A stretch of DNA of 27,029 bases from positions 1-27,029 of IMG/VR virus record IMGVR_UViG_3300040801_003070; one strand, given 5' to 3'. Below, piece by piece: positions 1,740-21,502 of the stretch (position 1 is its first letter; each line of letters starts with the position of its first letter). The notes beneath the pieces are model-generated. The model saw nothing but the letters and a program-made list of their open reading frames with translations. It was not told where the DNA came from and made no database searches. The translations under genes were made by a program, and so were the position numbers. The DNA is from a virus.

Positions 1740-1847
1740 AGGTATGGTATTTAATTTATAATTGATACAAATAAGTATCATTACTTGCATAAGAAACAAA
1801 TACGTATCATCTTTGCTACCATGATACACGATAATACAAATTGATAC
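1740..1847. promoter_or_regulatory. Divergent operator region between repressor and early genes
   Basis: This region contains a perfect TGATAC-N6-GTATCA site at 1763-1780, a one-mismatch site GAAAC-N6-GTATC at 1793-1808, and two half-sites TGATAC at 1822-1827 and 1842-1847, 20 bp apart. The second site runs into CATCTTTG (1808-1815), one base from the Bacteroidota -7 box TAnnTTTG, which probably serves the rightward early gene. The last half-site touches the ATG at 1848. This arrangement fits cooperative repressor/Cro binding. Confidence 0.7.
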
Positions 1848-2156
1848 ATGGCAAACTTAAATAATTTTTGCGAGTTCTACGATATGCGTTTACACAAAGA
1901 GCAGGAGGATGATATTCTCGCTCAAGATATAGATGCTCTTTTAAATGATTTTCTTCCCCGCACTTATGTAGACGAAGTCTTAAAAATTGCAGAAAAAAAA
2001 GGTCTGGATGATAACTATTCACCAGCCTATATAAGACACGTGCGATCTGGTCGCACCAAGGATGCAAACGTCTTTATGTGCATCCTAGAAGTAGCAGGTA
2101 AGTACCAGCAGGCAATGAAAAAGCTTAAGTCTACTATAGAAAAAGTAACAGTTTAA
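1848..2156 (+). CDS. Small early protein in cro position, unknown function
   Basis: A 102-residue, charged, mainly helical protein, first gene to the right of the operator region. The middle (DNYSPAYIRHVRSGRTKDAN) looks like a recognition-helix segment: in Bacteroidota regulators, a helix followed by YIRHVRSGR often contacts DNA. The position opposite the repressor and the half-operator directly before its ATG suggest a Cro-like or early regulatory role. I do not recognise a family with certainty. The next gene starts 10 bases downstream, so the two are probably cotranscribed. Confidence 0.65.
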   Translation: MANLNNFCEFYDMRLHKEQEDDILAQDIDALLNDFLPRTYVDEVLKIAEKKGLDDNYSPAYIRHVRSGRTKDANVFMCILEVAGKYQQAMKKLKSTIEKVTV

Positions 2157-2166
2157 TCAATTAATT

Positions 2167-2748
2167 ATGGAACAATTTAAAAACACTGGCGTGTATCCCG
2201 GCATGGTTTGCGCTAACACCGAGATCTTCAATCACGGCTCAAAACTACTAGCCATTCATGGCGGTAAAACTATTGATTTTGACGATCTACCTATAGAGAT
2301 CTTTAACAGGATCAACCAGGTTCTTTATACTGATATTGCTGCTCTACAGCAATTAAAAGAATGGTTTCCTAACGATCCCAAATCGCAAATTAAAAAATTT
2401 GCTTCATGCCGTTTTGGTGGGCTAGATCACACTCCAGATTTTGGCGAGGACCAGCAATGTGGCGAGTACTGGGAATGTCCTAATCGTGGCAACTGTGCTG
2501 GCGAGGGGGTCGTTTGTAAACTACCTGTCTACAACAGCAAGCGCCTTTCTTATAAGGACATCAAATTGATCAAATTACTTACTACGGTATCAACAAACGA
2601 GGTCATTGCTATAGAATTAAGCATGCCACTAGGCTCTTTTCACTTGGCCAAAAAACGCCTATATGAAAAACTAGGGGTCATGACCAAACAAGAAATTACA
2701 CGGGTAGCGGTTGCCCTTAACATCATTCAACCGCACATCATCTATTAA
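2167..2748 (+). CDS. Cys-cluster HTH regulator (LuxR/GerE-like C-terminus)
   Basis: A 193-residue protein with three parts. Residues 1-75 are an unassigned N-terminal region. Residues 81-117 hold five cysteines (C81, C98, C104, C110, C117) spaced as in a metal-binding or Fe-S loop, including the segment QQCGEYWECPNRGNCAG. Residues about 125-190 look like a GerE-type four-helix HTH (LSYKDIKLIKLL, then EVIAIELSMPLGSFHLAKKR and LYEKLGV). The architecture suggests a redox- or metal-responsive transcription activator, or a basal regulator of early or late phage genes. Metal binding is inferred from Cys spacing only. It follows the cro-position gene by 10 bases, and a hairpin (2753-2770) lies directly downstream. 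Confidence 0.6.
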   Translation: MEQFKNTGVYPGMVCANTEIFNHGSKLLAIHGGKTIDFDDLPIEIFNRINQVLYTDIAALQQLKEWFPNDPKSQIKKFASCRFGGLDHTPDFGEDQQCGEYWECPNRGNCAGEGVVCKLPVYNSKRLSYKDIKLIKLLTTVSTNEVIAIELSMPLGSFHLAKKRLYEKLGVMTKQEITRVAVALNIIQPHIIY

Positions 2749-2752
2749 TCAT

Positions 2753-2773
2753 GGGCGGCCATCACCGCCCTTT
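2753..2773 (+). terminator. Hairpin with short U tract after the HTH regulator
   Basis: GGGCGG (2753-2758) pairs with CCGCCC (2765-2770) around a six-base loop and is followed by TTT. The short U tract suggests a weak terminator or attenuator that lowers expression of the genes further right. Confidence 0.5.
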
Positions 2774-2786
2774 ATCTCAAAAGACT

Positions 2787-3002
2787 ATGGACATAAATAA
2801 AGATATTACTACTACTACCTCCGATGCTATTATGTTTTTCGACGCATTGCAATTATTAAGTAAAAAAATATTAAAAGCACAGCTAGAAAAGATTGAGTCT
2901 TTAAATATCAATGATTATGAAGACACCGCTGCTAGAGCTACCCTATTCAGCAATCTTAAAGTGCAACGCAATCGCGTTATCGCAAAACTCAATGAATTAT
3001 AA
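2787..3002 (+). CDS. Small helical protein, unknown function
   Basis: A 71-residue protein starting MDINKDITTTTSDAI and ending KLNEL. An in-frame ATG at 2751 exists, but it lies inside the preceding hairpin, so I prefer the ATG at 2787. The product is predicted to be helical (two helices about residues 14-38 and 45-70) with mixed charge. It sits immediately upstream of the primase gene and is probably cotranscribed with it, separated by 52 bases that carry a 20-bp palindrome. No family recognised; a small replication accessory or regulator is possible but unproven. Confidence 0.55.
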   Translation: MDINKDITTTTSDAIMFFDALQLLSKKILKAQLEKIESLNINDYEDTAARATLFSNLKVQRNRVIAKLNEL

Positions 3003-3018
3003 TAATACAGATGGCTGT

Positions 3019-3038
3019 TTCGCTTTCGCGAAAGCGAA
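3019..3038. repeat. Palindrome copy 1 (TTCGCTTTCGCGAAAGCGAA)
   Basis: A perfect 20-bp palindrome in the gap before the primase gene, built around the core GCTTTCGCGAAAGC that recurs in the window. It is the longest and the only intergenic copy. Confidence 0.9.
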
Positions 3039-3054
3039 CTAAAAAATACATTAC

Positions 3055-6000
3055 ATGGCATATATAGACAAAGAATTTATTGAAAAAGTAGTAGATCAAA
3101 GCGACCTGCTTGCGGTGATCAAGGACTTTATCCCTCTTAAAAAACAAGGCGCCAGCTGGGTAGGCCTATCGCCATTAAGTAATGAAAAGTCTGGTTCTTT
3201 TATCGTTTCTCCATCTAAAGGTATTTGGAAATGCTTTTCATCTGGTACTGGTGGTAATAGTGCCATCAGCTTTTTAATGAAGGTGCAGCATAAATCTTAT
3301 CCCGAAGCTATTGAATACCTTTCGCAAAAGTTAAATCTATCTGTTCAATATAGCGATAGCAAACAAGCAGCTGTGTATGCTGAACGTAAAGAAAAAGAAC
3401 TGCAGTTATTACCAGTTCTTAAAGCTAGTGCAAGGGTTTATCATGAATTATTACAGGATAAAAGCAGTACTGCTGCGCATGCCGAGCTTAAAAAAAGAGG
3501 CTATGATCAAGAGGTGGCAGATACCTATCAAATAGGTTTTGCACCGGGCAATCAATTCCTTTATAAAAAGCTGAGTGAATCTGGCAGGGTGTCTGAAGGT
3601 GTGCAATTGCACCTTATTAATGAAAAGAACCAGGATAGGTATTGGAATAGAGTGATCTATCCTATACACGATGCAAGCGGCGAGATCATCGGTCTAGCGG
3701 GTAGAGATACCACTGGCGATAGTAAAGCTGCAAAATGGATCAACAGTTCTGAAACATTGTTGTATGACAAATCTAAGGTTTGGTATGCCTTGCACCTGGC
3801 AAAAAACAGCATCAGTAAACTAGACAATGCCTTTGTTGTAGAGGGTTATAATGATGTGATCAGCTTTCGCGAAAGCGGAATACCCAACACCATTTCCCCT
3901 TGTGGTACTGCCATAAGTAGTCAACAGGCAAAGATTTTAAAGCGTTTTTGTAAAAAGGTAACGCTTGCACTAGATGGCGACAGTGCTGGGATAAAGGCAG
4001 CGATAAGAAACATACCTATTTTTTTAAACGAGGGTTTTTCGGTTTGCGTGGTGCCTTTTCCAGACAGTGTAGATCCTGATGATCTTACCCGCATTATAGG
4101 TAATGGCCTGTGCAATATCGCTCTTAAAAAACAATACAAAAACGTAAAGGATTTTCTTGATGTAAACGAGATCGACGGCTTTAAGGTGTTGATAGATCAC
4201 CACCTTACTGGTAACGAGATCGAGAAAGCTGCAGGGGCTAAAAAACTAGCAGCCATTATTGCAGATATTGATGAAGATTTTATTTCAGAAACCTATACCC
4301 TATGGGTGGTTAAAGAATCGTCCATCACGGCAACCATTCTTAAAAAATGGATATACGAGGCAAAGCTTGCCAAAATTCAAGATAATTTTGAATATATAGG
4401 CAAGTATCAATTTCCAGATGGTGTAGATGAAACTAAAGAACTAGTTGAAATAGCCGACCGCTACCAGATCATACAGGCAAAAAACCAAATCTATGTGCGC
4501 ACTGGTGAGGAAGAGCCGTATAAATTTAGATCTATATCTAATTTTTCTATAGAGATCATACAACACATGGTAGACGAGAAATTCCCTACCAAATTATTGC
4601 GCATCGTCAATGTGCTTAATAAAGAGGTGATTTTTGATGTGCCCAGCGATGCGGTGAACACACCTCAAAACTTTGATAATGTAGTTACGCAGCAGGGAAA
4701 CTACTTTTTTAAAGGTAATCGTGGCGATCTTAATAAACTGCGTGCCTACCTATTTGATAAAATGGGTAGTGGCCGCAAGATCGATGTTCTGGGCTGGCAG
4801 TCTGAAGGATTTTGGGTATGGAACAATCGAGTGGTTATTCCTGGACAGGATGCTTTTAATATAGAGAGCAACGGTGTTTTTAAATTTAAAAATACCAGCT
4901 ACTACATTCCTAGTGCAAACGAGGTGTATAAAAATAACCCGTACAAGTTCACGCCGCAAAAAAGATTTGTAGCACACACAACCGACATGAGCTTTCTTAA
5001 TTACACATCGCTTATGGTAAAAGTACATAGAGAGCATGCCATACCATCGCTTATGTTTACTGTGGCCAGTTTTTATATTGATCTTATAGTACAATCTACT
5101 GGTGGTAATTTCCCGCTACTATTTTTCTATGGTCCTGCATCGACCGGTAAGGACATGCTGGCCGAGTGTTGTCAATCCTTTTTTGGAAAGCCACAAAATG
5201 CAATCAATCTAGAGGGTGGTAATTCCACCTTTACAGCACAAATTAGGAAGACGGCACAGTTTGCAAACTGCATTACGCACCTATCAGAATATAAGCGTGG
5301 TGATCAAAAACTAGATGGTACTTTAAAAGGATTTTGGGACCGTCGCGGTAAAGAGATCGGGAATATTGAATCTAGAGTGGCGACAGACGAGACGCCTGTG
5401 CTGTCTAGTATTTTACTTACTGGCAATGAATATCCAGAGAGTGATGCATTGATCACAAGGTTGATCTGGAATGAAATGACTAAATCAACCTTTACTGCCC
5501 AGGAAGATAAAGACTATCAAGAACTGGCAGATATGAATCACAAGGGCGTGAGTGGTTTTAGTGATGCCTTCATTTCCCTGCGACCCTTAATTAAAGAACA
5601 CTTTAAGAAGAATCTACGCACATTTAAAGAGACTTTAAAACAACGAGTGGTTGACGTTAATGGTCGTATGGTAGGAAATATGAGCGTTTTGGGCGGTGTT
5701 TTCTTAACGCTTAATGATGTAGTGAAATTTCCTTTTACTCTAGATGAGTTGTTATCAAACTTTGAAAAAATACTAATCAATCAAGAGCGCAAGCGCAATG
5801 CAAATAGCTTGATCAACCGCTGGTGGGATTGTTTTTTACAATCAATGCGTGGCCAGCGCAACGATCAGTTGCGGGTGCATGAAGATTTTACGGTAGAGGG
5901 TGAAAGCATCTTTTTCAATTTTACAAATGCTTACTCGCGTGTGCAACGCCAGTGGTTCTTGCAGTACAAGAATTTGGCGCCTGGTAAAATGACCATGCTT

Positions 6001-6279
6001 ACCGAGCTGCGCAAGAGCCAGGCATATATCAATGATCATACTAGCAAGCGCATGGACAGCGGTCGCAATGCGATTAATACGAGTGCGATAGAATTAAACT
6101 TGGGTGTGATCGATGTTGGCCAAGAAATAATGAACCAGTTGCAGTTTCAGCTTAGCGAATCAGGAGCTAATGGCACAGGTAATTTATTTGGTTCCTTCCC
6201 TGCAACCCAACCGAATTCACCAAATGATAGAGACAAAGGCGAAAAATCTGGAAGAAATGACGATGAATTGCCTTTTTAA
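3055..6279 (+). CDS. Primase-helicase: degenerate CHC2 domain, TOPRIM, P-loop ATPase
   Basis: A 1074-residue replication protein. Residues 5-90 align with the DnaG CHC2 zinc-binding fold (NEKSGSF, WKCFSSGTGG), but three of four ligands are serine (S39, S42, S63; C60 is kept). Residues about 110-345 are a DnaG-like core: the TOPRIM acidic residues are intact as EGYND (E263) and DGD (D307, D309). The C-terminal half carries a Walker A motif GPASTGKD at 693-700 and a following region (HLSEYKRG, LLTGNE) typical of phage DUF927/SF3-like helicase modules. It should therefore prime and unwind phage DNA at the adjacent repeat array (6288-6487). A palindrome copy lies inside the TOPRIM coding region at 3863-3876. 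The helicase subfamily is uncertain; the primase part is secure. Confidence 0.9.
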   Translation: MAYIDKEFIEKVVDQSDLLAVIKDFIPLKKQGASWVGLSPLSNEKSGSFIVSPSKGIWKCFSSGTGGNSAISFLMKVQHKSYPEAIEYLSQKLNLSVQYSDSKQAAVYAERKEKELQLLPVLKASARVYHELLQDKSSTAAHAELKKRGYDQEVADTYQIGFAPGNQFLYKKLSESGRVSEGVQLHLINEKNQDRYWNRVIYPIHDASGEIIGLAGRDTTGDSKAAKWINSSETLLYDKSKVWYALHLAKNSISKLDNAFVVEGYNDVISFRESGIPNTISPCGTAISSQQAKILKRFCKKVTLALDGDSAGIKAAIRNIPIFLNEGFSVCVVPFPDSVDPDDLTRIIGNGLCNIALKKQYKNVKDFLDVNEIDGFKVLIDHHLTGNEIEKAAGAKKLAAIIADIDEDFISETYTLWVVKESSITATILKKWIYEAKLAKIQDNFEYIGKYQFPDGVDETKELVEIADRYQIIQAKNQIYVRTGEEEPYKFRSISNFSIEIIQHMVDEKFPTKLLRIVNVLNKEVIFDVPSDAVNTPQNFDNVVTQQGNYFFKGNRGDLNKLRAYLFDKMGSGRKIDVLGWQSEGFWVWNNRVVIPGQDAFNIESNGVFKFKNTSYYIPSANEVYKNNPYKFTPQKRFVAHTTDMSFLNYTSLMVKVHREHAIPSLMFTVASFYIDLIVQSTGGNFPLLFFYGPASTGKDMLAECCQSFFGKPQNAINLEGGNSTFTAQIRKTAQFANCITHLSEYKRGDQKLDGTLKGFWDRRGKEIGNIESRVATDETPVLSSILLTGNEYPESDALITRLIWNEMTKSTFTAQEDKDYQELADMNHKGVSGFSDAFISLRPLIKEHFKKNLRTFKETLKQRVVDVNGRMVGNMSVLGGVFLTLNDVVKFPFTLDELLSNFEKILINQERKRNANSLINRWWDCFLQSMRGQRNDQLRVHEDFTVEGESIFFNFTNAYSRVQRQWFLQYKNLAPGKMTMLTELRKSQAYINDHTSKRMDSGRNAINTSAIELNLGVIDVGQEIMNQLQFQLSESGANGTGNLFGSFPATQPNSPNDRDKGEKSGRNDDELPF
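3863..3876. repeat. Palindrome copy 2, in the TOPRIM coding region
   Basis: Perfect GCTTTCGCGAAAGC, read in frame as Ser-Phe-Arg-Glu-Ser within DVISFRESGI. This aligns without gaps to the DnaG segment usually like DVIALHQAGI, so the site arose by substitution and not by insertion. Confidence 0.9.
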
Positions 6280-6287
6280 AAAAAATA

Positions 6288-6487
6288 TGTGTAGAAAAAA
6301 TCTGAAACGTCCAAAAAACTTTCCACACTTCCACACATAGGTTAATTAATTAAAAATGAAATAATTAAGTGTGTAGAAAGCGTGCGGAATGTGTTGGAAG
6401 GTGTGGAAAGTGTTTTTAGTTTCCAACACAATCCACACCGATTAAGACCTAAAGTATTGAAAATGTGAGGTGTGGATGTGTGGAAAG
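6288..6487. other. Candidate replication origin with iteron-like repeats
   Basis: This non-coding block directly follows the primase-helicase gene. It has about ten copies of a GTGTGGAAAG-like unit in both orientations. Plus-strand copies are at 6288-6297, 6369-6380, 6391-6400, 6401-6410, 6469-6478 and 6478-6487. Minus-strand copies are at 6319-6328, 6328-6337, about 6420-6430 and 6431-6439. The best unit, GTGTGGAAAG, is exact at 6401 and 6478. An AT-rich stretch (6338-6368, rich in TTAATTAA) separates the left copies from the right ones and could be the melting zone. The units resemble, but do not equal, the DnaA box TTATCCACA. Iterons plus an AT-rich element next to the initiator/primase gene is the standard plan of theta origins in phages and plasmids. 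Function is inferred. Confidence 0.7.
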
Positions 6488-6519
6488 TGAAAAGCCAAAA
6501 TGACTAAAATAAATTGACT

Positions 6520-6726
6520 ATGAATTTTTTAAAACCAGATTACAGTAAAGAAGAGCTGGAGCAGATCTTTAAAACCTGCAAGACCAATATGCAGGTGGTA
6601 GAACTTACAAAGCGCATAAAGTATGATATACTAGACTGTTTGCGCTTGCAAGTTGCCCTCACTTTTAATGATGTTAAACAGGCGGCCCTGCATGCCATTG
6701 ATCAATTAGATACCCATGAAAACTAA
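6520..6726 (+). CDS. Small helical early protein, unknown
   Basis: A 68-residue protein, MNFLKPDYSKEELEQIFKTC and onward, predicted to be entirely helical. The start is the ATG at 6520, which follows the repeat array by 32 bases; a TTG two codons upstream is less likely. It overlaps the next gene by 11 bases. Its helical, charged character resembles small phage proteins that occur downstream of replication genes in Bacteroidota, but no family is recognised. Confidence 0.65.
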   Translation: MNFLKPDYSKEELEQIFKTCKTNMQVVELTKRIKYDILDCLRLQVALTFNDVKQAALHAIDQLDTHEN

Positions 6727-7174
6727 AATCACACTACACCAGGCAACCATCGACATGTTGCACAATAGGTACACGCTTCATTATGGCATGCCCTATTTTA
6801 TTATAAAAAATGGACAGGTACAACTGCCTAAGATCTTAACGCCTAGAACCGATGTGGTAGAGCTGTATGTAAAGTGTGAGCTCAATATGATATGGCTGTA
6901 CAAATACAACATACCAGGTATAGATTATGAAATATCCTTAAGACTCGCCACCAGGGATGATATGGCATATACCAAAAAACATATCCGGGACGACTGCATT
7001 TATTATATAGATGGCGACATACCCAGGCATCTACAACCGCACACCAATATGCACGAAATAGCCGATTTTTTAAAACAAGATCGCATTTATGTACAGCAAG
7101 GACCAGGAATCATCAGTAATAATTTTAATAATAATCTCGCTTTCGCAAAAGCGCAAATACCACAAGCATCATGA
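6716..7174 (+). CDS. Early protein, unknown function
   Basis: A 152-residue protein with mixed alpha/beta pattern (ITLHQATIDMLHNRYTLHYG near the start, IYVQQGPGIISNN near the end). The ATG overlaps the end of the preceding gene by 11 bases, and the stop overlaps the next ATG as ATGA, so translation is probably coupled. No signal peptide or membrane segment. The coding sequence carries an imperfect copy of the recurring palindrome near its 3' end (7138-7153), here in a different frame (Ala-Phe-Ala-Lys-Ala). No family recognised. Confidence 0.65.
   Translation: MKTKITLHQATIDMLHNRYTLHYGMPYFIIKNGQVQLPKILTPRTDVVELYVKCELNMIWLYKYNIPGIDYEISLRLATRDDMAYTKKHIRDDCIYYIDGDIPRHLQPHTNMHEIADFLKQDRIYVQQGPGIISNNFNNNLAFAKAQIPQAS
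7138..7153. repeat. Palindrome copy 3, imperfect
   Basis: CGCTTTCGCAAAAGCG differs from the perfect 16-bp palindrome by one base (A for G at 7147 or so). It is the only copy read in another frame, giving AFAKA. Confidence 0.75.
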
Positions 7175-7386
7175 TAACAATAAAAATTTCAGACGACGAG
7201 CGCAGTGCCACAGTAAATGGCAAGAATGTATTTCAAGACAGTTGCGGCAACTGGCTTGCAAGCGGTGAACTGCTCACAGATCAAGAAAAGCAAACCTTTT
7301 TTAACCATTTGCGCCCACGTACTACGGTGCAGCATAAAATAAAACCATCGCTTTCTTTTTGTAAAATTAAAAGATCCTTGCCATGA
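7171..7386 (+). CDS. Small beta-rich early protein, unknown
   Basis: A 71-residue protein beginning MITIKISDDERSATVNGKNV. The N-terminal 30 residues look like a small beta sheet and the C-terminus is basic. Its ATG overlaps the previous stop (ATGA) and its own stop overlaps the next ATG in the same way, which fixes both starts and marks a tightly coupled operon. Function unknown. Confidence 0.6.
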   Translation: MITIKISDDERSATVNGKNVFQDSCGNWLASGELLTDQEKQTFFNHLRPRTTVQHKIKPSLSFCKIKRSLP

Positions 7387-7514
7387 AGTCGCCCACGCCC
7401 AACAGCTGGCAACATGCACAAGAGCATAGAGCACAAGCAATAGAGGCCTTGCGCAAGGCAAAGCAGCTAGAACTAGAACAATCAGATAAAAAGAAAAAAC
7501 AATCCCTAAAATAA
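7383..7514 (+). CDS. 43-residue basic/helical peptide
   Basis: A short gene, MKSPTPNSWQHAQEHRAQAI and onward, ending in a lysine-rich tail (KKKKQSLK). It overlaps the previous gene by four bases (ATGA) and lies 7 bases before the next ATG. The composition suggests one long helix with a positively charged end. The overlap and conserved spacing are the main support for translation. Confidence 0.5.
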   Translation: MKSPTPNSWQHAQEHRAQAIEALRKAKQLELEQSDKKKKQSLK

Positions 7515-7521
7515 AAAGATC

Positions 7522-7863
7522 ATGAATCAAAATTTAATAATAGACGCCATAGTAGTCATAATGCTTATTGCATTTGTGATCTACTTTCATACAGTGATGA
7601 TGCCATCACTTAAAGAAATAAATGAAAGCTTAAAAAGAGAGCGCGCTGCGCTAGAAAAAGAGCTGCAAGATAAACAGTGCAATATTCACAATTCCATACT
7701 TTTTAATTCAACGTATATTCTAGATGAAAATGCAGAACACAGGTACCTGGAATATATTAATGCTATACAAGAAATAGAGGCAGATGACTGGTTAAAAGAG
7801 CGAGAGATCAATGCAGCAAAGTTTATGCTTTCTTTTAATCGCATACTAATGAATAAACAATAA
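7522..7863 (+). CDS. Small membrane-anchored protein with cytoplasmic coiled region
   Basis: A 113-residue protein. Residues about 5-27 (LIIDAIVVIMLIAFVIYFHT) form one transmembrane helix, followed by a charged helical region with heptad-like pattern (LKEINESLKRERAALEKELQ). It belongs to the early operon and ends four bases before the next ATG. A membrane-anchored helical protein in this position could act in host takeover or superinfection exclusion, but the sequence alone does not decide this. Confidence 0.6.
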   Translation: MNQNLIIDAIVVIMLIAFVIYFHTVMMPSLKEINESLKRERAALEKELQDKQCNIHNSILFNSTYILDENAEHRYLEYINAIQEIEADDWLKEREINAAKFMLSFNRILMNKQ

Positions 7864-7867
7864 ATCA

Positions 7868-8167: not shown

Positions 8168-8201
8168 TGAAAAGCATAAGCGTAGTGCGACTTTGAAAAA
8201 A

Positions 8202-8209
8202 TAATTTTG
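8202..8209 (+). promoter_or_regulatory. Possible -7 promoter box TAATTTTG
   Basis: Matches the Bacteroidota consensus TAnnTTTG and lies 30 bases before the ATG at 8239. No good -33 TTTG is seen at the normal distance. Confidence 0.35.
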
Positions 8210-8238
8210 AATTAAACGATAAACTAATAATTAAAAAT

Positions 8239-8412: not shown

Positions 8413-8449
8413 TTGTGCCTAACTAACTATAATCTAAAACTCACCCTAC

Positions 8450-8728: not shown

Positions 8729-8765
8729 AAACTTACACACCCCACATCACCCACACCAATAAATT

Positions 8766-8789: not shown

Positions 8790-8794
8790 GTTAT

Positions 8795-9112: not shown

Positions 9113-9169
9113 TCCATCACCACTGCGCACCTCTTAAAATTTTACCCTTATGTAATAAAATGATAAAAT

Positions 9170-9208
9170 GTATCTTTGTGAATATTTGATACTTATATGT
9201 ATCTTTGA
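9170..9208 (+). promoter_or_regulatory. Late promoter 1 with embedded operator
   Basis: GATAC-N6-GTATC occupies 9188-9203, and its right half forms part of the -7 box TATCTTTG (9200-9207, TAnnTTTG). A second GTATCTTTG at 9170-9178 supplies a TTTG about 21 bases upstream. The ATG of the first late gene is at 9212, leaving a very short leader. A repressor bound here would cover the -7 box. Confidence 0.75.
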
Positions 9209-9211
9209 ATT

Positions 9212-9709
9212 ATGGAAATTTCATCACTCCTTGCTGGATTAACTACCATTTGCGGTATTGCTATAGATGCGACCGCCGTTGCTGTGCCTGCTAGCGATGA
9301 TAGTCAACAGGGCTTTTACGATAGTCGCATGCTAGATGGCATTAGACAGACTTCTTATTTTGGTAGATCTTCTGTACGCTTTCGCGAAAGCAAAAAAAGA
9401 ACTACTGCAGGAAACTTTTACGAGCAAGAGTGCATTATACAATTTCCTAATTACGATAGCCAAGCAATTGCTAGAATTAAAGAATACGAGCGTGCCAAAT
9501 TTGTATATATAAAAAACAGTAATGGTAAAGAGCTACTTATGGGCCGCAACGATCACCGTCAAAACCGCAAACCTTTATGTGATGTTCAGCGTGATGAGCA
9601 CATGACCATTATTACCTATACCTGTCAAAGCATTGCCCCTATTGGTTATAATGATGCACATCTTAACCTAGGCCTACCACATGAGCTACCTATATTTTTA
9701 TTTAATTAG
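9212..9709 (+). CDS. First late gene, tail-associated protein candidate
   Basis: A 165-residue protein with no transmembrane segment, mixed alpha/beta (EISSLLAGLTTICGIAIDAT at the start; QECIIQFPNYDSQAIARIKE in the middle). It directly precedes the tail-fibre gene by two bases and follows the late promoter, so a tail or baseplate role is plausible but not shown by any motif. A palindrome copy (9378-9391) is read in frame as FRES. The short 5' leader (about 4 bases from the -7 box) suggests a leaderless or nearly leaderless transcript, unless the start is further downstream. Confidence 0.6.
   Translation: MEISSLLAGLTTICGIAIDATAVAVPASDDSQQGFYDSRMLDGIRQTSYFGRSSVRFRESKKRTTAGNFYEQECIIQFPNYDSQAIARIKEYERAKFVYIKNSNGKELLMGRNDHRQNRKPLCDVQRDEHMTIITYTCQSIAPIGYNDAHLNLGLPHELPIFLFN
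9378..9391. repeat. Palindrome copy 4, in the first late gene
   Basis: Perfect GCTTTCGCGAAAGC, read as Arg-Phe-Arg-Glu-Ser-Lys in the 165-residue protein. Confidence 0.9.
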
Positions 9710-9711
9710 AC

Positions 9712-14404: not shown

Positions 14405-14446
14405 TTTTGTAAGTAATAAGCATTTATTTAATTACAAAACGATCAC

Positions 14447-14779
14447 ATGTTAGATACAAACAGCAATCTTATAGTAGGGGTTTTAGGTGGTGTAGCAGCT
14501 ATAATAGGAGCTGCAAAATGGGTTGCCGACGCTTTTAAGGAACACCGCCTAGCCAAAGAAATCAAACTTATCGAAATCATTGAAGAGCTAGATATGGAAA
14601 AGGCACACAATAAACGCATTGACAAAGAGCTGCAAACGCTTAAAAACGATATGTCGCTTATGAAAATAAGAATGGCGGCAGTTTTACCCCTATTAAAAAA
14701 AATGAACGCTGGTGATCCAGAGACGATTGAACTATTAGAACTTCTTACCATTTCACCTAATGTTACCCCTGCATCATGA
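14447..14779 (+). CDS. Holin-like small membrane protein
   Basis: A 110-residue protein with one N-terminal membrane helix (LIVGVLGGVAAIIGAAKWVA, residues 8-27) and a long charged coiled coil (residues 30-85). It overlaps the amidase gene by four bases (ATGA). An N-terminal membrane helix plus cytoplasmic coiled coil, coupled to an endolysin, fits a holin or holin regulator. Not proven by homology. Confidence 0.6.
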   Translation: MLDTNSNLIVGVLGGVAAIIGAAKWVADAFKEHRLAKEIKLIEIIEELDMEKAHNKRIDKELQTLKNDMSLMKIRMAAVLPLLKKMNAGDPETIELLELLTISPNVTPAS

Positions 14780-15324
14780 AAACAGCCATAGTCATAGGAC
14801 ATCACGAGAATAGTAAAGGGGCCTATTCTCCCTTTCTTAAATTAGCAGAGTGGGATTTTTACCAGCAGTCACTTGCCTACCTTACTTTATTAAGGTTAGA
14901 CATGCCAGATATATATGTCCATGACCCTGCAATAAAGGGATATACCAGCCGTATAAAAGATACAGCTGCTAGAATAAACAAGTGCGCTTATGATCTAGTA
15001 ATAGAGCTTCATTTTAATGCAGCTGCATCACCCAGGGCAAATGGTTGCGAGACATTGTACTATTTTAAAAGTGCAAAGGGTAAAGAATTTGCCCAACTAT
15101 TTAGTAACACAGTAAATAAAAATACAGGGATAAGATTGCGCAATGCTGGTCTTAAAGCCCTAAGCAGTGATCGTGATCGCGGCTTTGCAAGTGTGTTTTA
15201 TACAGTGGCACCTACCATTTTAATCGAGCCCTTTTTTGGCAGTAATGCTGCCGACTGTGACCGCATTGACGGACCTAAAAAAATGGCAAGAATTATACAA
15301 GAGTTTTTAATAAATCTAGTCTAA
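14776..15324 (+). CDS. N-acetylmuramoyl-L-alanine amidase, endolysin
   Basis: A 182-residue Amidase_3-type zinc enzyme. It cleaves the bond between N-acetylmuramic acid and L-alanine in peptidoglycan during host lysis. The zinc and catalytic residues are visible: H9 in VIGHHENSKG, E25 in LAEWDFYQ, H79 in VIELHFNAAASP and E151 in TILIEPFFGS. There is no signal peptide, so export or release needs the holin-like neighbour. It is framed by coupled genes on both sides (ATGA and TAATG), which defines a lysis cassette. Confidence 0.85.
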   Translation: MKTAIVIGHHENSKGAYSPFLKLAEWDFYQQSLAYLTLLRLDMPDIYVHDPAIKGYTSRIKDTAARINKCAYDLVIELHFNAAASPRANGCETLYYFKSAKGKEFAQLFSNTVNKNTGIRLRNAGLKALSSDRDRGFASVFYTVAPTILIEPFFGSNAADCDRIDGPKKMARIIQEFLINLV

Positions 15325-15662
15325 TGGGCCTTATCACTACCATAAAAGAAAAGCTGCACCCCAGTAACAGCTTTATATGGATAGTTATTCTTATAGGTCT
15401 AGTACTTTTCTACCTGCGCGATAATTATACAAAAGAATTAGAAAAAACCCAGCTACTAGAACAAAAACGACAGGAATTAATTGATTTACGCTTTCGCGAA
15501 AGCGAGATACAGCAACAGCTATTGTGCGATCAAGAAGAAAGATTTTTAAAAATTATTAAAGAAATCAAGCAAGACATTAAATACGTGCCTTATGAAAAAA
15601 CTATTTATCGCTATTATAATGCAGACACTGTGCTGCACATTCTTAACAGCGCAAGATACTAG
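15324..15662 (+). CDS. Inner-membrane spanin-like protein (Rz-type)
   Basis: A 112-residue protein with one N-terminal membrane helix (FIWIVILIGLVLFYLR, residues 18-33) and a long periplasmic coiled coil (residues 35-90). This is the topology of i-spanins, which with an outer-membrane partner fuse the two membranes at lysis. It follows the amidase directly (TAATG), and its last 71 bases overlap the next gene in another frame, the classic Rz/Rz1 arrangement. A palindrome copy (15489-15504) is read as FRES within its coiled coil. No sequence homology to known Rz proteins was tested. Confidence 0.6.
   Translation: MGLITTIKEKLHPSNSFIWIVILIGLVLFYLRDNYTKELEKTQLLEQKRQELIDLRFRESEIQQQLLCDQEERFLKIIKEIKQDIKYVPYEKTIYRYYNADTVLHILNSARY
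15489..15504. repeat. Palindrome copy 5, in the spanin-like gene
   Basis: Perfect CGCTTTCGCGAAAGCG, read as Leu-Arg-Phe-Arg-Glu-Ser-Glu. Confidence 0.9.
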
Positions 15663-16152
15663 CGCACGTATAGACCCTGAAACTGGCAACGTTATACTGC
15701 CCTTTCAAAAAGCCCAAGAACTGGCAAACATTGCGCTAGATAGAGATCGCTTACTCGTGCAAATAAAGCACCTAGAACAAAAGCTATCAAGAACTGAAAA
15801 AGCCATCGATAGCCTGCAAGCCATACACCAGCAAACCATTCAGCAACACAACGACTATTTAATAGCCGATAGACTGCGAGACCAGGCAATAGATCAAACA
15901 GCTAGCGACCAGATAGACGTGTGGAAAGGCCTATCAAAAGGCATAGGATTTAGTACCCAAATTAACTCACAGGTTTACTCCTTTACAAACACCACCCCTA
16001 CAATTCCCTTGTCTATAGATGCCAGGCTATCGGTTACCGGCACCAGGTTTACATTTGCAGCCATACCATTTGCAGGCCTAGTAAACATACCAGGACAATC
16101 TACCTATGGCATATCAGGCTTAAAATTATCTGTAGGTTATAAGTGGTTTTAA
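15592..16152 (+). CDS. Outer-membrane spanin-like candidate with beta-signal
   Basis: A 186-residue protein with a Sec signal peptide (MKKLFIAIIMQTLCCTFLTA, cleavage before Gln-Asp), a coiled coil (about residues 40-105) and a C-terminal beta region of about 70 residues that ends SVGYKWF. A final aromatic residue after alternating hydrophobics is the beta-signal that targets outer-membrane proteins to BamA. A lipobox, as expected for Rz1-type o-spanins, is not convincing (the Cys pair is preceded by Thr-Leu). It overlaps the i-spanin-like gene by 71 bases. It may therefore be an o-spanin that uses beta strands, perhaps as an oligomer, in place of a lipid. Confidence 0.55.
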   Translation: MKKLFIAIIMQTLCCTFLTAQDTSARIDPETGNVILPFQKAQELANIALDRDRLLVQIKHLEQKLSRTEKAIDSLQAIHQQTIQQHNDYLIADRLRDQAIDQTASDQIDVWKGLSKGIGFSTQINSQVYSFTNTTPTIPLSIDARLSVTGTRFTFAAIPFAGLVNIPGQSTYGISGLKLSVGYKWF

Positions 16153-16171
16153 CACTTTAATAAGCAGATTC

Positions 16172-16237
16172 AAAAGTTATTCTAAAGTTTTGTGACCCTA
16201 CTAATAAGGGTCAAACATCACTTTGGAAATAACTTTT
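16172..16237. repeat. 66-bp imperfect palindrome after the lysis genes
   Basis: Arms at 16172-16199 and 16207-16237 share AAAAGTTATT at the outer ends and TGACCCT-like bases next to a seven-base loop, with bulges in between. It may end the late block 1 transcript or be an attC-like structure. No long U tract follows. Confidence 0.6.
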
Positions 16238-16318
16238 ATAATTTAAGCACATTAACCGATTAATATGTAGTATAACGAATATGTTTGTTTTAATTATCCG
16301 AAATGTCGGAATAGGTTG

Positions 16319-16326
16319 TATATTTG
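16319..16326 (+). promoter_or_regulatory. -7 promoter box TATATTTG
   Basis: Matches the Bacteroidota consensus TAnnTTTG 25 bases before the ATG at 16351, and suggests independent expression of the accessory island. No good -33 box is seen. Confidence 0.5.
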
Positions 16327-16350
16327 TGCATCTAATTAAAACAAACAAAC

Positions 16351-16590
16351 ATGAAAACATTAATTGAAACTTTAAGAAGCAAAAAAACTGGTTACGGGCA
16401 CTTTAGTATTTCTATTGAAATGGAAGAAATAGAGTTTAAAACTACAACGACAAACACAATGGCAATTGATGCAGCGTTTGATGATTGTTATGATGATGAA
16501 GATAATGACGGAAGATATTACGAAAGCAGAGAGGAAGCGCAAGAGGCTTTAGTTAATGAGATTTTGAGAGCAAACGAAATCGAACTATAA
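16351..16590 (+). CDS. Small acidic accessory protein
   Basis: A 79-residue protein (MKTLIETLRSKKTGYGHFSI onward), strongly acidic in the middle (DDCYDDEDNDG) with a C-terminal helix. It has its own -7 promoter box. The AT-rich island around it (16160-17340) lies between two phage blocks and looks like a moron insert. Acidic small proteins of this kind are sometimes DNA mimics that block restriction or other DNA-binding proteins; here this is speculation only. Confidence 0.55.
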   Translation: MKTLIETLRSKKTGYGHFSISIEMEEIEFKTTTTNTMAIDAAFDDCYDDEDNDGRYYESREEAQEALVNEILRANEIEL

Positions 16591-16592
16591 AA

Positions 16593-16745
16593 ATGTTACA
16601 ATCACACGAACAAAGAAAAGCGGAAAGAAGCAGGTTATTTAATATAGCCTGCAATAACGCTATAAGTTACTGGAGTGATAAACAAAACAATGATCAAGTA
16701 ATTTATTTTCAAAAACTAAAGTCATATAACACGAATTTAATTTAA
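16593..16745 (+). CDS. 50-residue accessory peptide
   Basis: A short gene, MLQSHEQRKAERSRLFNIAC onward, starting two bases after the preceding stop. The composition (charged first half, YWSDKQNNDQVIYFQ in the middle) looks protein-like. Translation is supported by spacing only. Confidence 0.45.
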   Translation: MLQSHEQRKAERSRLFNIACNNAISYWSDKQNNDQVIYFQKLKSYNTNLI

Positions 16746-16828
16746 CTTTTTGTGGTAAATTAATCAAACAATTTAAAAAAACACATTTTAGAAAAAACTC
16801 AAAGCATCCTGCAAGAATATATGCTAAG

Positions 16829-17023
16829 GTGTTTTTCCCACCTGATTGCCCAGAAAAGTTTTGGATGTATTATTTAGTCATGGAAGTAAACGGAAAGCCT
16901 TATCAAATTACATCGATTACAAATGAGGCTTTTGATACTTTAACACGAGGAATTGAACCAAATGGCTATGCTTCTGTCGAGTTTTATACAATTGAAAAAC
17001 ACCAATTACTGTTGGAGGCTTAA
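16829..17023 (+). CDS. Accessory protein, GTG start or 5'-truncated
   Basis: With the GTG at 16829 as start, the product is 64 residues (FFPPDCPEKFWMYYLVMEVN onward). The frame is open and protein-like back to 16730 (for example CGKLIKQFKKTHFRKNSKHP), but no ATG, GTG or TTG precedes 16829. The gene is thus either short with a GTG start, or the 3' part of a longer gene that lost its beginning, or read by frameshift from the gene at 16593. No family recognised. Confidence 0.4.
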   Translation: MFFPPDCPEKFWMYYLVMEVNGKPYQITSITNEAFDTLTRGIEPNGYASVEFYTIEKHQLLLEA

Positions 17024-17059
17024 GTTTACGCATAAACTCTTTTAAAAAACAATAACAAC

Positions 17060-17335
17060 ATGAGCAAAAACACAAATTACCTTGCAGCTGCAAAAGAATC
17101 ACAAAAAATAACTATCAATTACTGGCAAAGTATTCTAGAAGATGATAATAAATCTATAGGATGGTTAGCCAAAAAAAGCGGTATATCAAGATCGGTACTA
17201 TATGACTATTGGGCTGGCAAGGTAGACATGAGCCTTATTAATTACTACCGTATTTGTGGCGCTCTAGAATTAAGGCCATACCTGGTTCCAAAAGATAATG
17301 ATGACAATACGATTATAAACATGGGGTTTAATTAA
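17060..17335 (+). CDS. Xre-like HTH protein of the accessory island
   Basis: A 91-residue protein. Residues about 28-80 are a helix-turn-helix (SIGWLAKKSGISRSVLYDYW, then MSLINYYRICGALELRP). It is the last gene of the island before a strong terminator. It could regulate the island, act as an antitoxin or be a second phage regulator. Its HTH differs clearly from the repressor at 1428-1739. Confidence 0.65.
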   Translation: MSKNTNYLAAAKESQKITINYWQSILEDDNKSIGWLAKKSGISRSVLYDYWAGKVDMSLINYYRICGALELRPYLVPKDNDDNTIINMGFN

Positions 17336-17369
17336 ATAACCTCCATCACTATAAATAGATTAAAACTAC

Positions 17370-17398
17370 AAGCCTGCTTTATAAGCGGGCTTTTTTTT
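17370..17398 (+). terminator. Intrinsic terminator after the Xre gene
   Basis: AAGCCTGCT pairs with AGCGGGCTT (one G-T pair) around a short loop and is followed by eight T. It separates the accessory island from late block 2. Confidence 0.85.
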
Positions 17399-17450
17399 GC
17401 TTTTTTTTCATGTTACAAGTAAAAGCGGTGCATGCCTTGATATTTGTAGT

Positions 17451-18356
17451 ATGAAAAGAAATTCTCTTGCCTACGAGCTTATAAAAGGTGTATGGATGCT
17501 TGACACTACTTTCATTATGAATAGTGGTGAGCTGGTATCTTCTTTACTTAATAAGACTGGTAATATAGAAGCTGTAAAAAGCCAGGACGAAGTATTTCAT
17601 CCAGATATGTCGGTAGACATCTATAACTTTGATGGTGATAAAATAGGCCAGGGCTTTAACATCGATATACCACAGGGCAGCACTGCAAAAATAAATATGC
17701 TAGGTCCTATCATCAAATATGGTGATTACTGCACCTGGGGAGCTGACGAACTAACTGCGCAGTTATCACGTGCAGATCGCAATCCCAATATTACCGAAAT
17801 ACATTTATACATTGACTCTCCTGGAGGGTCTGTAAACGCTATTGCTCCATTTATTCAATTTGGTTTAACAAGAACCACACCTATAAAGGTGATAGTAGAT
17901 CAATGCTGCTCACTAGGTTACTGGGCTGCCATTGCTATGAAAGCCCCCATATATGTAGATAATGATATAAGTGCGGTAATAGGTAGTATAGGCGTGCAAC
18001 TTTCTATTATGGATGCTATACCGCATTATGAATCCATGGGGTATAAAAGCCACAGGATAACACCACCAGAAAGCAGCGAGAAAAACAAGGTCTTTGAAGA
18101 AGTACTGGCGGGTAATTATGACCGTATTAATAAAGAAATGCTGTCGCCCATGGCGCAAAAGTTTCAAAATGCAGTGCGAGATGCACGTCCAGGGGTGCAA
18201 GAATATGCACTTACTGGCAGGACCTTTATGTATGAAGCTGCTCTAGAGCAAAAACTAGTAGATGGGATTTCTAGCACGTCCCAACTGTTAATGGATAAAA
18301 AACAAAGTGCTCAACTTACAGATGCTCGTCGTGAGATTGCGACATCAATTCTATAA
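17451..18356 (+). CDS. Prohead protease, S49/SppA-like
   Basis: A 302-residue serine protease from the ATG of MKRNSLAYELIKGVWMLD. It contains IDSPGGSV, then CCSLGYWAAIAM with the probable nucleophile S154, and SAVIGSIGV, the order typical of SppA/S49 phage prohead proteases. It should trim scaffold or capsid proteins during head maturation. The gene is followed 23 bases later by the probable capsid gene, the standard protease-capsid pair. The frame is open further upstream to 17397, but that extension runs through the preceding terminator. A near-consensus -7 box (GATATTTG) lies just before the ATG. Confidence 0.85.
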   Translation: MKRNSLAYELIKGVWMLDTTFIMNSGELVSSLLNKTGNIEAVKSQDEVFHPDMSVDIYNFDGDKIGQGFNIDIPQGSTAKINMLGPIIKYGDYCTWGADELTAQLSRADRNPNITEIHLYIDSPGGSVNAIAPFIQFGLTRTTPIKVIVDQCCSLGYWAAIAMKAPIYVDNDISAVIGSIGVQLSIMDAIPHYESMGYKSHRITPPESSEKNKVFEEVLAGNYDRINKEMLSPMAQKFQNAVRDARPGVQEYALTGRTFMYEAALEQKLVDGISSTSQLLMDKKQSAQLTDARREIATSIL

Positions 18357-18379
18357 TTAACCCTTTAAAAAGAAAAAAA

Positions 18380-20554
18380 ATGAAACTCTCAAGATTTATT
18401 AAAACGCTGTCGCTGGTAACGTTCCTGTGCGGCTTTTTCAGTTGGGGACAAAACTTGCCTGTTATGGAAGACGGTAGTTTTGATCTTACTGGAGAACAAA
18501 AAACAAGATTAATGGCATCAAATAGTAATGGTGATGCTATGACAAATGCAGAGATCGACGCCATGATTGGCAAGATCAATGGCGAGTTAAAAGAGCTGCG
18601 CGCACAAGATGCTGCCGCTAGCGAGTTTAAGTCTGTAAAAGATATGCTGGCACAAATGTCTAAAGACAACGGTGTATCTGAAGAAGAGATAGAACTCGTT
18701 GCCAAAGATGGCGAGCCTGGGTCTATTACAATGGCGCAACTTACCGCACTGCAAGGCAAGCTCTCGCAAAGAGATGCCAAAATAAAGCAATTAGAACTTC
18801 TAGATGTAGGAGATCCAGCGGCTATTGATGGAAAAATTTTAAATAAAGGAGATATGCACAGTCAATCGCACTTCCTAGCATCTGGTGCAGACTGGGATGC
18901 AAAACAGGGCCGCCCTTGGAATGCGGCAGCAATGGCAGGAAGCATTAACGCATCTACCGACTGGGGGGATAAGTTAAGTGTAGAACGCTTGCAAAAAGAT
19001 ACAGATCATTTTTATCGTATCAATCCAGACACTATTAAGTCACTTTTTAGAGACGACGAGACATTACCGTCTTTCTGGCAATGGATTTATAATGTAAGCG
19101 ATAGAAGTGCCACATCTAGCATTGTTACTGGTGAAGTAACGCAGGCGAGAAAGCCAGGATGGTTACCTAAAAATAAACAAGCAATCAAGGCCGAAGAAGG
19201 ACGTGTATTCCCTATTCAAATTGATCTAGAGTTTGAAGGTTACCAGCTGCAAAAAATGGAATCTTCATGGTTACAAGAATGGAACAAAGAGGGATCACAA
19301 GCCTATAAGAAATCATTTATTGAATTCTTACTAGTAGAGATCGTTAAAAACGCACGTCTAGAAGATCGCCAGGCGATGATCAACGGTGTGTATTCTCCTA
19401 TCCCTGAAAATGTAAACATTACAGGAAAGTCTATTCACAAAATGGACGGTCTTTTAATACAGTTATGGAGAGCCTATTATATTGCTAAAAAATATAAAGT
19501 TGCCCCTATTGCAGCACCTACTAATCAAAACATTTTAGATCATGAAGTGGCATTAATTGAGAGCAATCTTAAAGAAGATGTAAAAAATGCTACAGGTCTT
19601 AAATTATACATGTCACCATCATGGGTGCGTGCAAGAATGTTGCGTAAGAGAGAGATCTATGGCGGTGATAATAACTATACTGGTGCCGAACTTATGGATA
19701 TAGAAAACTATCCTAATATTCAAATCTGTGCTTTGCGTGATCTAGAGGGTACTAACTTTATGTTTATTACTCCGGGTGATAACATACGCCCTATGTGTAA
19801 TGTAAAGAATGAAGATTCTATTTTTCAATTTGATAGTTTAAAAAGAAACTTCTTTGTTTATGCAGATTATAAAAAAGGTATCAAGTTTGACCATATAGGT
19901 AATGTGGTGAGCGATACAGATCCTGATAGCTTTAAAGTGCAAACGGTGTGGACCAATGGACAGCCTATCTTTAAAGATTCATTTGATGTAACTATGTATG
20001 ACGACACTACAGGCATCGTGACTGCGCTATATTCAAATATGCGTGTAGATAGCAACTGGACTACCGACATTACACAATTAAAAGGGCAATTTGCTGGTCA
20101 AGTTATTAAATTAACAGGATCTGCAGGTGCAACTGGTAATGTAAAGAACAATGCAAATATTGTTCTTGCTGGTGGTACAGATTTTAACCTGGCTACCACA
20201 GGCACCCTTACTCTAGTAGTTAATAACGACCTTACAGTAAAAGAAGTAAAACGCACTGGTAATTTACCATCACAGCCTACTGCTGTAGAGTTTACTGACA
20301 CTACAATAGACAGTCTAGCAGGTAACGAGTTTAAATTTATAGGCGGTGCTGCTGCAACACTTGCAAGCATAGAAAACCCTATAGAAGGTAGAGCAATCAA
20401 GATCTATGGTAAGACTGGTGTAGTATTTACTATAGAGAGCGTTGCAGGTAACATTGCAGTAAATTCAACAGCGGCACTAGATGCCGATGCAGAATTTGTA
20501 GAGCTTACTGTTATCGACGGAGTATTCACTGAAACTAATCGCAACGTAGCTTAA
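18380..20554 (+). CDS. Probable major capsid protein with scaffold-like N-terminus and beta modules
   Basis: A 724-residue protein following the prohead protease, so most likely the major capsid protein. Residues 1-24 read like a Sec signal (FIKTLSLVTFLCGFFSWGQ), although an in-frame ATG at 18464 (residue 29) would avoid it. Residues about 50-150 are a helical, scaffold-like region. Residues about 165-560 would form the shell domain. At the C-terminus, about 570-630 and 668-715, lie two similar beta modules (GQVIKLTGSAG, then NIVLAGGTDFNLA; GRAIKIYGKTG, then NIAVNSTAALDAD) which probably decorate the head surface. The HK97 fold is inferred from context and not from a motif. Confidence 0.7.
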   Translation: MKLSRFIKTLSLVTFLCGFFSWGQNLPVMEDGSFDLTGEQKTRLMASNSNGDAMTNAEIDAMIGKINGELKELRAQDAAASEFKSVKDMLAQMSKDNGVSEEEIELVAKDGEPGSITMAQLTALQGKLSQRDAKIKQLELLDVGDPAAIDGKILNKGDMHSQSHFLASGADWDAKQGRPWNAAAMAGSINASTDWGDKLSVERLQKDTDHFYRINPDTIKSLFRDDETLPSFWQWIYNVSDRSATSSIVTGEVTQARKPGWLPKNKQAIKAEEGRVFPIQIDLEFEGYQLQKMESSWLQEWNKEGSQAYKKSFIEFLLVEIVKNARLEDRQAMINGVYSPIPENVNITGKSIHKMDGLLIQLWRAYYIAKKYKVAPIAAPTNQNILDHEVALIESNLKEDVKNATGLKLYMSPSWVRARMLRKREIYGGDNNYTGAELMDIENYPNIQICALRDLEGTNFMFITPGDNIRPMCNVKNEDSIFQFDSLKRNFFVYADYKKGIKFDHIGNVVSDTDPDSFKVQTVWTNGQPIFKDSFDVTMYDDTTGIVTALYSNMRVDSNWTTDITQLKGQFAGQVIKLTGSAGATGNVKNNANIVLAGGTDFNLATTGTLTLVVNNDLTVKEVKRTGNLPSQPTAVEFTDTTIDSLAGNEFKFIGGAAATLASIENPIEGRAIKIYGKTGVVFTIESVAGNIAVNSTAALDADAEFVELTVIDGVFTETNRNVA

Positions 20555-20576
20555 TAGCTGCGTTCTAAAAAACTAA

Positions 20577-21410
20577 ATGATGAGTGTAAGAAAATCAGCA
20601 CCATTACCACAAGGGGCGTCGCCAGCGGCGCCCATAGGTAAAAAGCCCAACGTACACATTGTGTCGGTGGCAGATATATTAAGATATCCAGAGAGAGACT
20701 CTGGCAAGATTAACATTCTAGGTAACTATGTACTTAAGCCAGGTGCTAAGTCTAGCAGCTTTTACATGACCCCTTCAGAGCTTAAGTTAAGCTTTGCATC
20801 AGAGGGTGGTGAAAATGCCATAGGTATTTTACAAAAAATAGAAGGTTTGCACCCAGGTAACTATATCACATCACGTGAGTTTACTGCCGAGTGGTTTGGT
20901 ACCCCTTGTATATTATTTTTAGGTCTGTGCGATGGTACAGGTAATCATGATGTATATGGTACAGAGTGTTCGCCATTGACATTTAAGCCTAGTCAAGAAT
21001 TAAACAATGACAGTACAAACTTTACTTTCATGTTTGAGCAATTTGCAAGAACTAAATCCCTTCCAGGTCTTTATTCTGGCACACTTGCCCTAGCCTTGCC
21101 TAATGCCCCAGCTGCTTTTGATCTTGACCTACTAGCAGCAAACGAGACACAGCAATATAACTTGCCAGCGTCAGATACTGCGCTTACAACTATAAGTGTT
21201 GCTACAGAAGATCTAGACCAAGACACAACAGTGTCTATTGTAGGAGCAGGCGGGGCAAATCCTGCCGTACTTTCAGACGGTGCAAGCACCGCTGCAACTA
21301 TTATTCTTAAAAACGGGACCGACTGGATTGCCTTAAACAATGCCGTCATTCATTTAAAGAAAATAGATAATGGCAGTGTAACCTTCTTATATGAGCTTTT
21401 CCGCTCTTAA
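20577..21410 (+). CDS. Late structural protein, tail tube or decoration candidate
   Basis: A 277-residue beta-rich protein. Two adjacent ATGs are possible (20577 and 20580). The first 190 residues (for example SSSFYMTPSELKLSFASEGG and CSPLTFKPSQELNND) have the alternating beta pattern of tail-tube-like proteins. Residues about 215-277 form a module similar to those at the end of the capsid protein (AATIILKNGTDWIALNN). It is the last gene of block 2, followed by a terminator. Its role is inferred from position. Confidence 0.6.
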   Translation: MMSVRKSAPLPQGASPAAPIGKKPNVHIVSVADILRYPERDSGKINILGNYVLKPGAKSSSFYMTPSELKLSFASEGGENAIGILQKIEGLHPGNYITSREFTAEWFGTPCILFLGLCDGTGNHDVYGTECSPLTFKPSQELNNDSTNFTFMFEQFARTKSLPGLYSGTLALALPNAPAAFDLDLLAANETQQYNLPASDTALTTISVATEDLDQDTTVSIVGAGGANPAVLSDGASTAATIILKNGTDWIALNNAVIHLKKIDNGSVTFLYELFRS

Positions 21411-21428
21411 TTAAGAAAACTTTAACAC

Positions 21429-21465
21429 AAGCCCAATAAAGACACTGTTTTTACTGGGCTTTTTC
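21429..21465 (+). terminator. Intrinsic terminator of late block 2
   Basis: AAGCCCA (21429-21435) pairs with TGGGCTT (21455-21461), extended by further A-T pairs, and is followed by a T run. Confidence 0.8.
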
Positions 21466-21482
21466 ATATTACAACCTTAAAA

Positions 21483-21502
21483 GATACCTATATGTATCTT
21501 TG
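21483..21502 (+). promoter_or_regulatory. Late promoter 3 with embedded operator
   Basis: GATAC-CTATAT-GTATC at 21483-21498; the right half forms part of the -7 box TATCTTTG at 21495-21502. Same arrangement as at 9188-9207. The ATG of the next gene is at 21519. Confidence 0.75.

Follow-up and report, generated by a model that had tools for sequence, protein, structure and literature searches.

The palindrome GATAC-N6-GTATC occurs four times, once with a mismatch, in a 27,029-bp fragment recorded as a virus in IMG/VR (the whole stretch analysed, hereafter the window), and it is likely the operator of the phage's own 103-residue XRE repressor, which would use it to shut the early promoter and the promoters of two late blocks, late 1 and late 3. 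Comparison of early and late regions across relatives suggests that much of the family has an operator for its repressor at late 1. We hold with moderate confidence the broader view that this late-1 operator is present across much of the Duneviridae, that the repressor co-evolves with both of its operator locations as immunity types, and that some lineages, the window's among them, have extended the regulon to a second late promoter, where the operator stands in for the family's late-3 element.

Phage identity and gene content

By gene content and order, the window is a Duneviridae-like temperate phage of flavobacteria, with Flavobacterium phages laban6-1 and 6H among its relatives. The protein at the major capsid protein (MCP) position is 30-41% identical to those of laban6-1, 6H, 23T and Ingeline, the primase 40-45% identical to those of the laban6-1/6H group, and the LuxR-type regulator, a candidate late regulator, 30-44% identical to its counterparts; the homologous capsid block, primase and regulator also keep their order. 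In laban6-1, 6H, 23T, 2A and Ingeline this common order runs from the repressor and divergent cro-like gene through the LuxR-type regulator, primase and late-1 gene to the lysis genes, protease, capsid-position protein, a terminator-like hairpin (recognised by eye) and the late-3 promoter (Table 1). The label "late" is reasonable because late 1 precedes structural and lysis genes, from which its late timing is presumed. No family match was found for the terminase-large-like protein.

Several further features bear on the phage's history and host. A fragment of an IS transposase (70-285, minus strand; DDE_Tnp_1_4, 1.4e-8, just under the Pfam cut-off) lies beside a serine recombinase (357-1373, plus strand; Recombinase domain) that lacks its N-terminal part, and the integrase may have been broken by the IS. 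A 14-bp palindrome, GCTTTCGCGAAAGC, recurs near 3022, 3863, 9378, 15490 and 22970, one per about 5.4 kb; the 3.2-Mb Flavobacteriaceae genome G057 holds 578 copies, or roughly one every 5.5 kb, and the other 150 genomes searched hold 0-17. It is a highly iterated palindrome of host type, present in the phage at host density, and may point to the host genus. The late region also encodes a second small HTH protein (17060-17335, plus strand; HTH_26, 9.8e-5), and the late region of 6H likewise has an HTH gene, N375_gp25.

Table 1. Coordinates of the features discussed, in positions of the window.
Feature	Position	Strand	Remarks
Putative immunity repressor	1428..1739	-	103 aa; XRE helix-turn-helix + C-terminal helix
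Operator O1 (candidate)	1764..1779	.	perfect GATAC-N6-GTATC between repressor and cro-like gene
Operator O2 (candidate)	1793..1808	.	one mismatch; about -27 to -12 of predicted cro-like transcript start
Cro-like gene	1848..2156	+	divergent from repressor; same position in laban6-1, 6H, Ingeline (synteny)
LuxR-type regulator	2167..2748	+	phrog_10300, 3.2e-32; conserved in Duneviridae
DNA primase-like protein	3055..6279	+	marks early block
Late-1 promoter (predicted)	9175..9207	+	TTTG 9175-9178; 21-bp spacer; TATCTTTG 9200-9207
Late-1 operator (candidate)	9188..9203	.	-24 to -9 of predicted start
First late-block-1 gene	9212..9709	+	phrog_23018; homologs in laban6-1, 6H, others
Endolysin (Amidase_3), late block 1	14776..15324	+	
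Head maturation protease (S49)	17397..18356	+	
Major-capsid-position protein	18380..20554	+	phrog_21862; family marker
Late-3 promoter (predicted)	21467..21502	+	TATTACA 21467-21473; -7 box TATCTTTG 21495-21502; predicted start 21507
Late-3 operator (candidate)	21483..21498	.	-24 to -9; relatives have TGTAATTACA/GGTAATTACC/TGCAATTGCA there
First late-block-3 gene	21519..22433	+	phrog_21662
Terminase-large-like protein	23929..25620	+	by position; by-eye resemblance to L296 ORF 4255-5964

Candidate operator sites in the window

A preliminary description of this DNA had reported three perfect copies of GATAC-N6-GTATC and a fourth with one mismatch, and a whole-window scan recovered exactly these: O1 (GATACAAATAAGTATC), the late-1 site (GATACTTATATGTATC) and the late-3 site (GATACCTATATGTATC) are perfect, O2 (GAAACAAATACGTATC) has the single mismatch, and no further copy with up to one mismatch exists. 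Its other remarks on the sites were also borne out: read in reverse, the late-1 site differs from O1 in one of 16 bases; two sites lie on the late-1 and late-3 -7 boxes and two between the repressor and the cro-like gene; and the motif is rare, with a mean of 0.003 perfect copies (maximum 1) per window in 300 dinucleotide shuffles. All four sites are confined to three promoter regions. With up to one mismatch the shuffle mean was 0.48, and four or more copies appeared in 0.3% of the 300 shuffles. The four sites are real, and their frequency is not that of chance. At up to two mismatches the 13 copies in the window, against 8.8 expected, are no longer clearly enriched, so the signal depends on the four good sites. 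The pattern read backward has no occurrence in the window, and 45 related phage loci (861 kb) hold no perfect copy and 13 copies with up to one mismatch (0.41 per 27 kb).

The geometry is the same at both late promoters: with the -7 box set at -12 to -5 of the start, the rule for flavobacterial sigma-A promoters (PMC9723704), each operator spans -24 to -9 of the predicted start and overlies the -7 box. Through that box the two late sites agree in 20 of 21 bases, GATAC[T/C]TATATGTATCTTTGA. The predicted late-1 start, 9212, is the A of the ATG, which would make the message leaderless, a class comprising 5.5% of mapped mRNAs in F. psychrophilum (PMC9723704). On the early side, a -7-like box (CATCTTTG, 1808-1815) sets the predicted cro-like start by the same -12/-5 rule (PMC9723704), and the best match of the repressor-cro region across the whole window is the late-1 operator. 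Upstream of the late-1 gene there are two TATCTTTG boxes 29 bp apart (in 9160-9178 and 9188-9207), the additional copy at 9171 being adjoined by GATAA-N3-GTATC; operator and promoter may have been copied here as a unit that has since degenerated.

The putative repressor and its proposed mode of action

The putative repressor has the marks of an XRE (Cro/C1) protein. Its HMM matches are to HTH_19 (8e-6) and HTH_3 (1.2e-4), both just under Pfam cut-offs, and its PHROG matches are to phrog_8 (1.1e-7) and phrog_3. A model built from 12 family repressors predicts a five-helix HTH over residues 1-70 (pLDDT about 75-93) and, with less certainty, a C-terminal helix; the PDB neighbours of this model in Foldseek include HigA, SinR, P22 c2 and P2 C, each match being weak by itself (best E 2.4e-3, none below 1e-3). 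The 103-residue reading frame is present with its ATG at 1739, a longer GTG reading to 1829 being mechanical, and a cro-like gene diverges from it across the candidate operators. No S24 peptidase domain was found in the 103 residues, which gave only HTH matches and end in a helix instead, placing the protein outside the LexA/lambda-CI-like self-cleaving class. Induction by self-cleavage is therefore unlikely, and the repressor would be removed by an antirepressor or by competition from the cro-like protein. Searches for its close relatives in viral contigs, 400 Flavobacteriaceae genomes and the host-like genus returned only distant XRE proteins or nothing.

In a lysogen, the repressor, probably as a dimer, would bind O1 and O2 and switch off the divergent early (cro-side) promoter. 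It would also occlude RNA polymerase at late 1, and with it the structural and lysis genes, by covering the -7 box from -24 to -9, and in this phage would occlude late 3 likewise. Here we infer both that the binder is the repressor, either in place of the cro-like protein or in addition to it, and that binding leads to repression; the cro-like protein would itself be expected to bind these sites. Positive control by other factors probably persists.

Direct silencing of late genes by the repressor is probable, given that switch and late promoter share a site here and, with other sequences, in many relatives. The preliminary description, which had the repressor directly shutting both late blocks, fares differently at each: for late 1 the claim is supported by a coupling that recurs in relatives with lineage-specific sequences, while for late 3 it is plausible and so far window-specific (p = 0.08 across the family). 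The same description had the phage bypassing the late activator cascade, which the evidence does not support. Relatives have other conserved late-promoter elements (at late 3 a palindrome with a TGTCACA/TGTTACA box, at late 1 TTACA-N4-TTACA) together with the LuxR-type regulator gene, so repression probably acts on top of activation. Those family boxes are lost or altered in the window, and a simpler circuit in this phage alone is possible.

Early and late-1 regions across the family

Relatives were gathered by MCP alignment, regulator, primase and genome searches; single-sequence scans with the late-1 protein or the MCP found none, whereas MCP alignment and primase scans did. The test covered the window and 20 other phages for which both regions were available, 21 in all (G018, G033, G041 and G046 lack the repressor end). 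For each we scored the best ungapped segment that the repressor-cro intergenic region shared, on either strand, with the 130 bases leading up to the late-1 gene; region borders were partly hand-set, and the early regions of some relatives depend on ORF calls. The own-pair scores summed to 434.9, against 316.8 +/- 13.2 for shuffled pairings (z 8.9, p<=1e-5; none of 100,000 permutations of pairings reached the own-pair sum), where kinship among some of the phages makes the permutation p approximate and z stays high, at 8.3, with the window left out. AT-rich words raise the scores, an effect that the cross-pairing control absorbs. The regions were picked after sharing had been noticed in laban6-1 and 6H, which therefore do not count as independent tests. 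Seven phages that joined once the hypothesis had been formed gave p = 0.012, a small set in which L248 and L249 are close relatives. In 8 of the 21 phages, the top match of the repressor region in the available phage DNA was late 1, where 0.11 would be expected at random.

The shared words are lineage-specific: AAAAAGGAAAACTTTT in laban6-1, AAATACACTTCA in G011, ACAAATAAGTCTATT in G032 and AAAATTTACTTATAAGTA in G026, with 19 identical bases, TAGCAATTAATTGCTAAAT, in the early region and late 1 of G164. Across 14 phages, the similarity of these words between phages correlates with the identity of their repressors (Mantel r 0.28, p = 0.007), and lineage-specific words that track the repressor in this way are marks of an operator evolving with its repressor. 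GATAC-N6-GTATC itself was sought in the relatives and no perfect copy was found, because each lineage has its own operator; what recurs at late 1 is a word of each phage's own. Among the matches listed in a scan for GATACN6GTATCTTTG, multi-copy loci were tandem repeats or coding matches lacking the family genes. Late-1 sharing was not clear in G013, G016, G023 and L257, was weak in G059, and was not seen in Ingeline. In some relatives the putative operator covers the -33 side instead of the -7 box, so the mode is not the same throughout.

About half of the relatives have a TTACA-N3to5-TTACA direct repeat upstream of late 1 (6H, G011, G018, G020, G022, G023, G026, G034, L156, L193, L248 and L249), which is absent in the window; it is a candidate activator site.

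The late-3 promoter

Late 3 of most relatives combines a palindrome (TGTAATTACA, GGTAATTACC, TGCAATTGCA or TGCACGTGCA), centred 8 nt before TTTG in those measured, with a box that reads TGT[CT]ACA, TGTCTT or TGTCCT. The window's operator has the same centre, and the window's TATTACA stands 32 nt before TTTG, just as far as the TGT[CT]ACA box does in the family. A clear operator at late 3 was seen only in the window among the phages compared, and word sharing between early region and late 3 does not reach significance across the family (p = 0.08, or 0.13 with the window left out). Read most simply, the operator took over from the family palindrome in the window's lineage. We considered the GGTAATTACC palindrome as the operator of the distant phages that carry it at late 3 and rejected it, the palindrome being absent from the repressor-cro regions of the relatives compared. 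Near late 3 of an Algibacter relative (G013), AATAC-N6-GTATT is a weak candidate for a repressor word of that phage.

The phage fragment L296 carries an exact 20-mer of the window's late-1 site (GATACNTATATGTATCTTTG) on the -7 box of a promoter that follows a gene at the terminase position, and it is the only other contig in the viral collection (IMG/VR) in which this 20-mer was found. The promoter lies in the late region, and the L296 homolog of the late-3 protein is 35% identical to the window's. As L296 comes without a repressor region, the match is only suggestive of the operator's place on late promoters; it also hints that the tail block, which the window lacks, may have an operator.

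In six phages (L122, L125, L127, L128, L129 and L130) TGTCACA occurs several times per phage, often just before gene blocks and in a promoter-like setting, which makes it a candidate late-promoter box of these six.

Alternative explanations

The late-promoter sites might instead serve mainly the cro-like protein, lowering or timing the late promoters during lytic growth. Cro-type proteins usually use the same operators as the repressor, and the cro-like gene is lineage-variable too, at 23-34% identity to its counterparts in alignments; however, its product has no recognisable HTH family match in Pfam or PHROG, whereas the repressor has one. Repressor identity tracks the operators (the Mantel test covered the repressor only), and a lytic down-turn of late genes is less sensible than silencing in the lysogen, all of which makes the cro-like protein an unlikely main user. 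It is similarly improbable that the late-3 palindrome, and perhaps every site, is the window's version of the family late-3 palindrome, serving as an activator or timing site for a conserved regulator such as the LuxR-type protein. The common palindrome centre, the matching spacing of the relatives' TGTCACA box and the window's TATTACA, and the same 8-nt geometry at the window's late-1 site all speak for such a regulator, but TGTAATTACA and TGCAATTGCA are absent from the repressor-cro regions compared and do not resemble GATAC-N6-GTATC, while the window's late-3 site equals O1 in 10 of 10 arm bases.

Alternatively, the two late promoters could be a duplicated core promoter whose likeness to O1 and O2 arose by chance, which we regard as very improbable. 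Part of the -7 box falls within the GTATC arm, so that half of each late site is otherwise constrained, and the TATCTTTG copy at 9171 would also fit duplication. Yet the GATAC arm lies outside the promoter consensus and is part of a motif with no perfect copy in the related phages, and the coupling of early region and late 1 recurs in relatives with quite different sequences. We therefore retain the repressor as the likely user of all four sites.

If the broader, family-level view is true as well, lysogeny would rest on two or three direct locks and not on an early cascade alone. The comparison predicts operators in about a dozen phages, the cultured laban6-1 and 6H among them, and these make immunity groups and direct late-gene silencing testable together. 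It also offers a route to operators, namely words common to the repressor region and the late-1 promoter within one phage; the literature searches made for this comparison found no earlier account of such operators in these phages.

Comparison with known systems

A single repressor with operators at several places in the genome is already known from P1, L5 and SPbeta, and the window has the same operator sequence at its switch and at remote lytic promoters. P1 C1 has 22 operators dispersed over the genome and shuts lytic functions, late ones included (PMC8546580), and thus resembles the window in its single immunity repressor, its scattered operators and the presence of late functions among those shut. 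C1 is, however, reported to control Lpa, the late-promoter activator, and its operator is an asymmetric 17-mer, whereas in the window a palindrome lies at few sites and on the late promoters themselves. In SPbeta, the master repressor MrpR acts at about ten promoter regions via SPBRE, a repeat first spotted by sequence alone (PMC10516654); MrpR differs in its tyrosine-recombinase fold and its larger number of sites, the window's repressor being a small XRE protein. In mycobacteriophage L5 (cluster A) the repressor has sites both on promoters and away from them (PMC9283540). These are more than 20 asymmetric 13-mers, predicted to be bound by a monomer, many of them intergenic to stop elongation. 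The window instead has four palindromic sites, all in promoter regions, and so lacks the stoperator arrangement of L5.

Coliphage 186 is alike in that its CI-type repressor influences late functions through a distal operator, but there CI targets the promoter that drives the late activator and assembles into wheel-like oligomers. Among the Duneviridae, Flavobacterium phages laban6-1, 6H, 23T and 2A and Cellulophaga phage Ingeline agree with the window in gene order and have homologs of its primase and LuxR-type regulator, of its capsid block and of its late-3 gene, and laban6-1 and the 6H group each have their own repressor-region words on late 1; they differ in their annotated integrases, which are unlike the window's serine recombinase, and in their operator sequences, and laban6-1 has a TGTCACA-type signature at late 3. 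What sets the present case apart from P1, L5 and SPbeta is a small number of putative palindromic operators on the late promoters themselves, one of them apparently conserved across much of a phage family.
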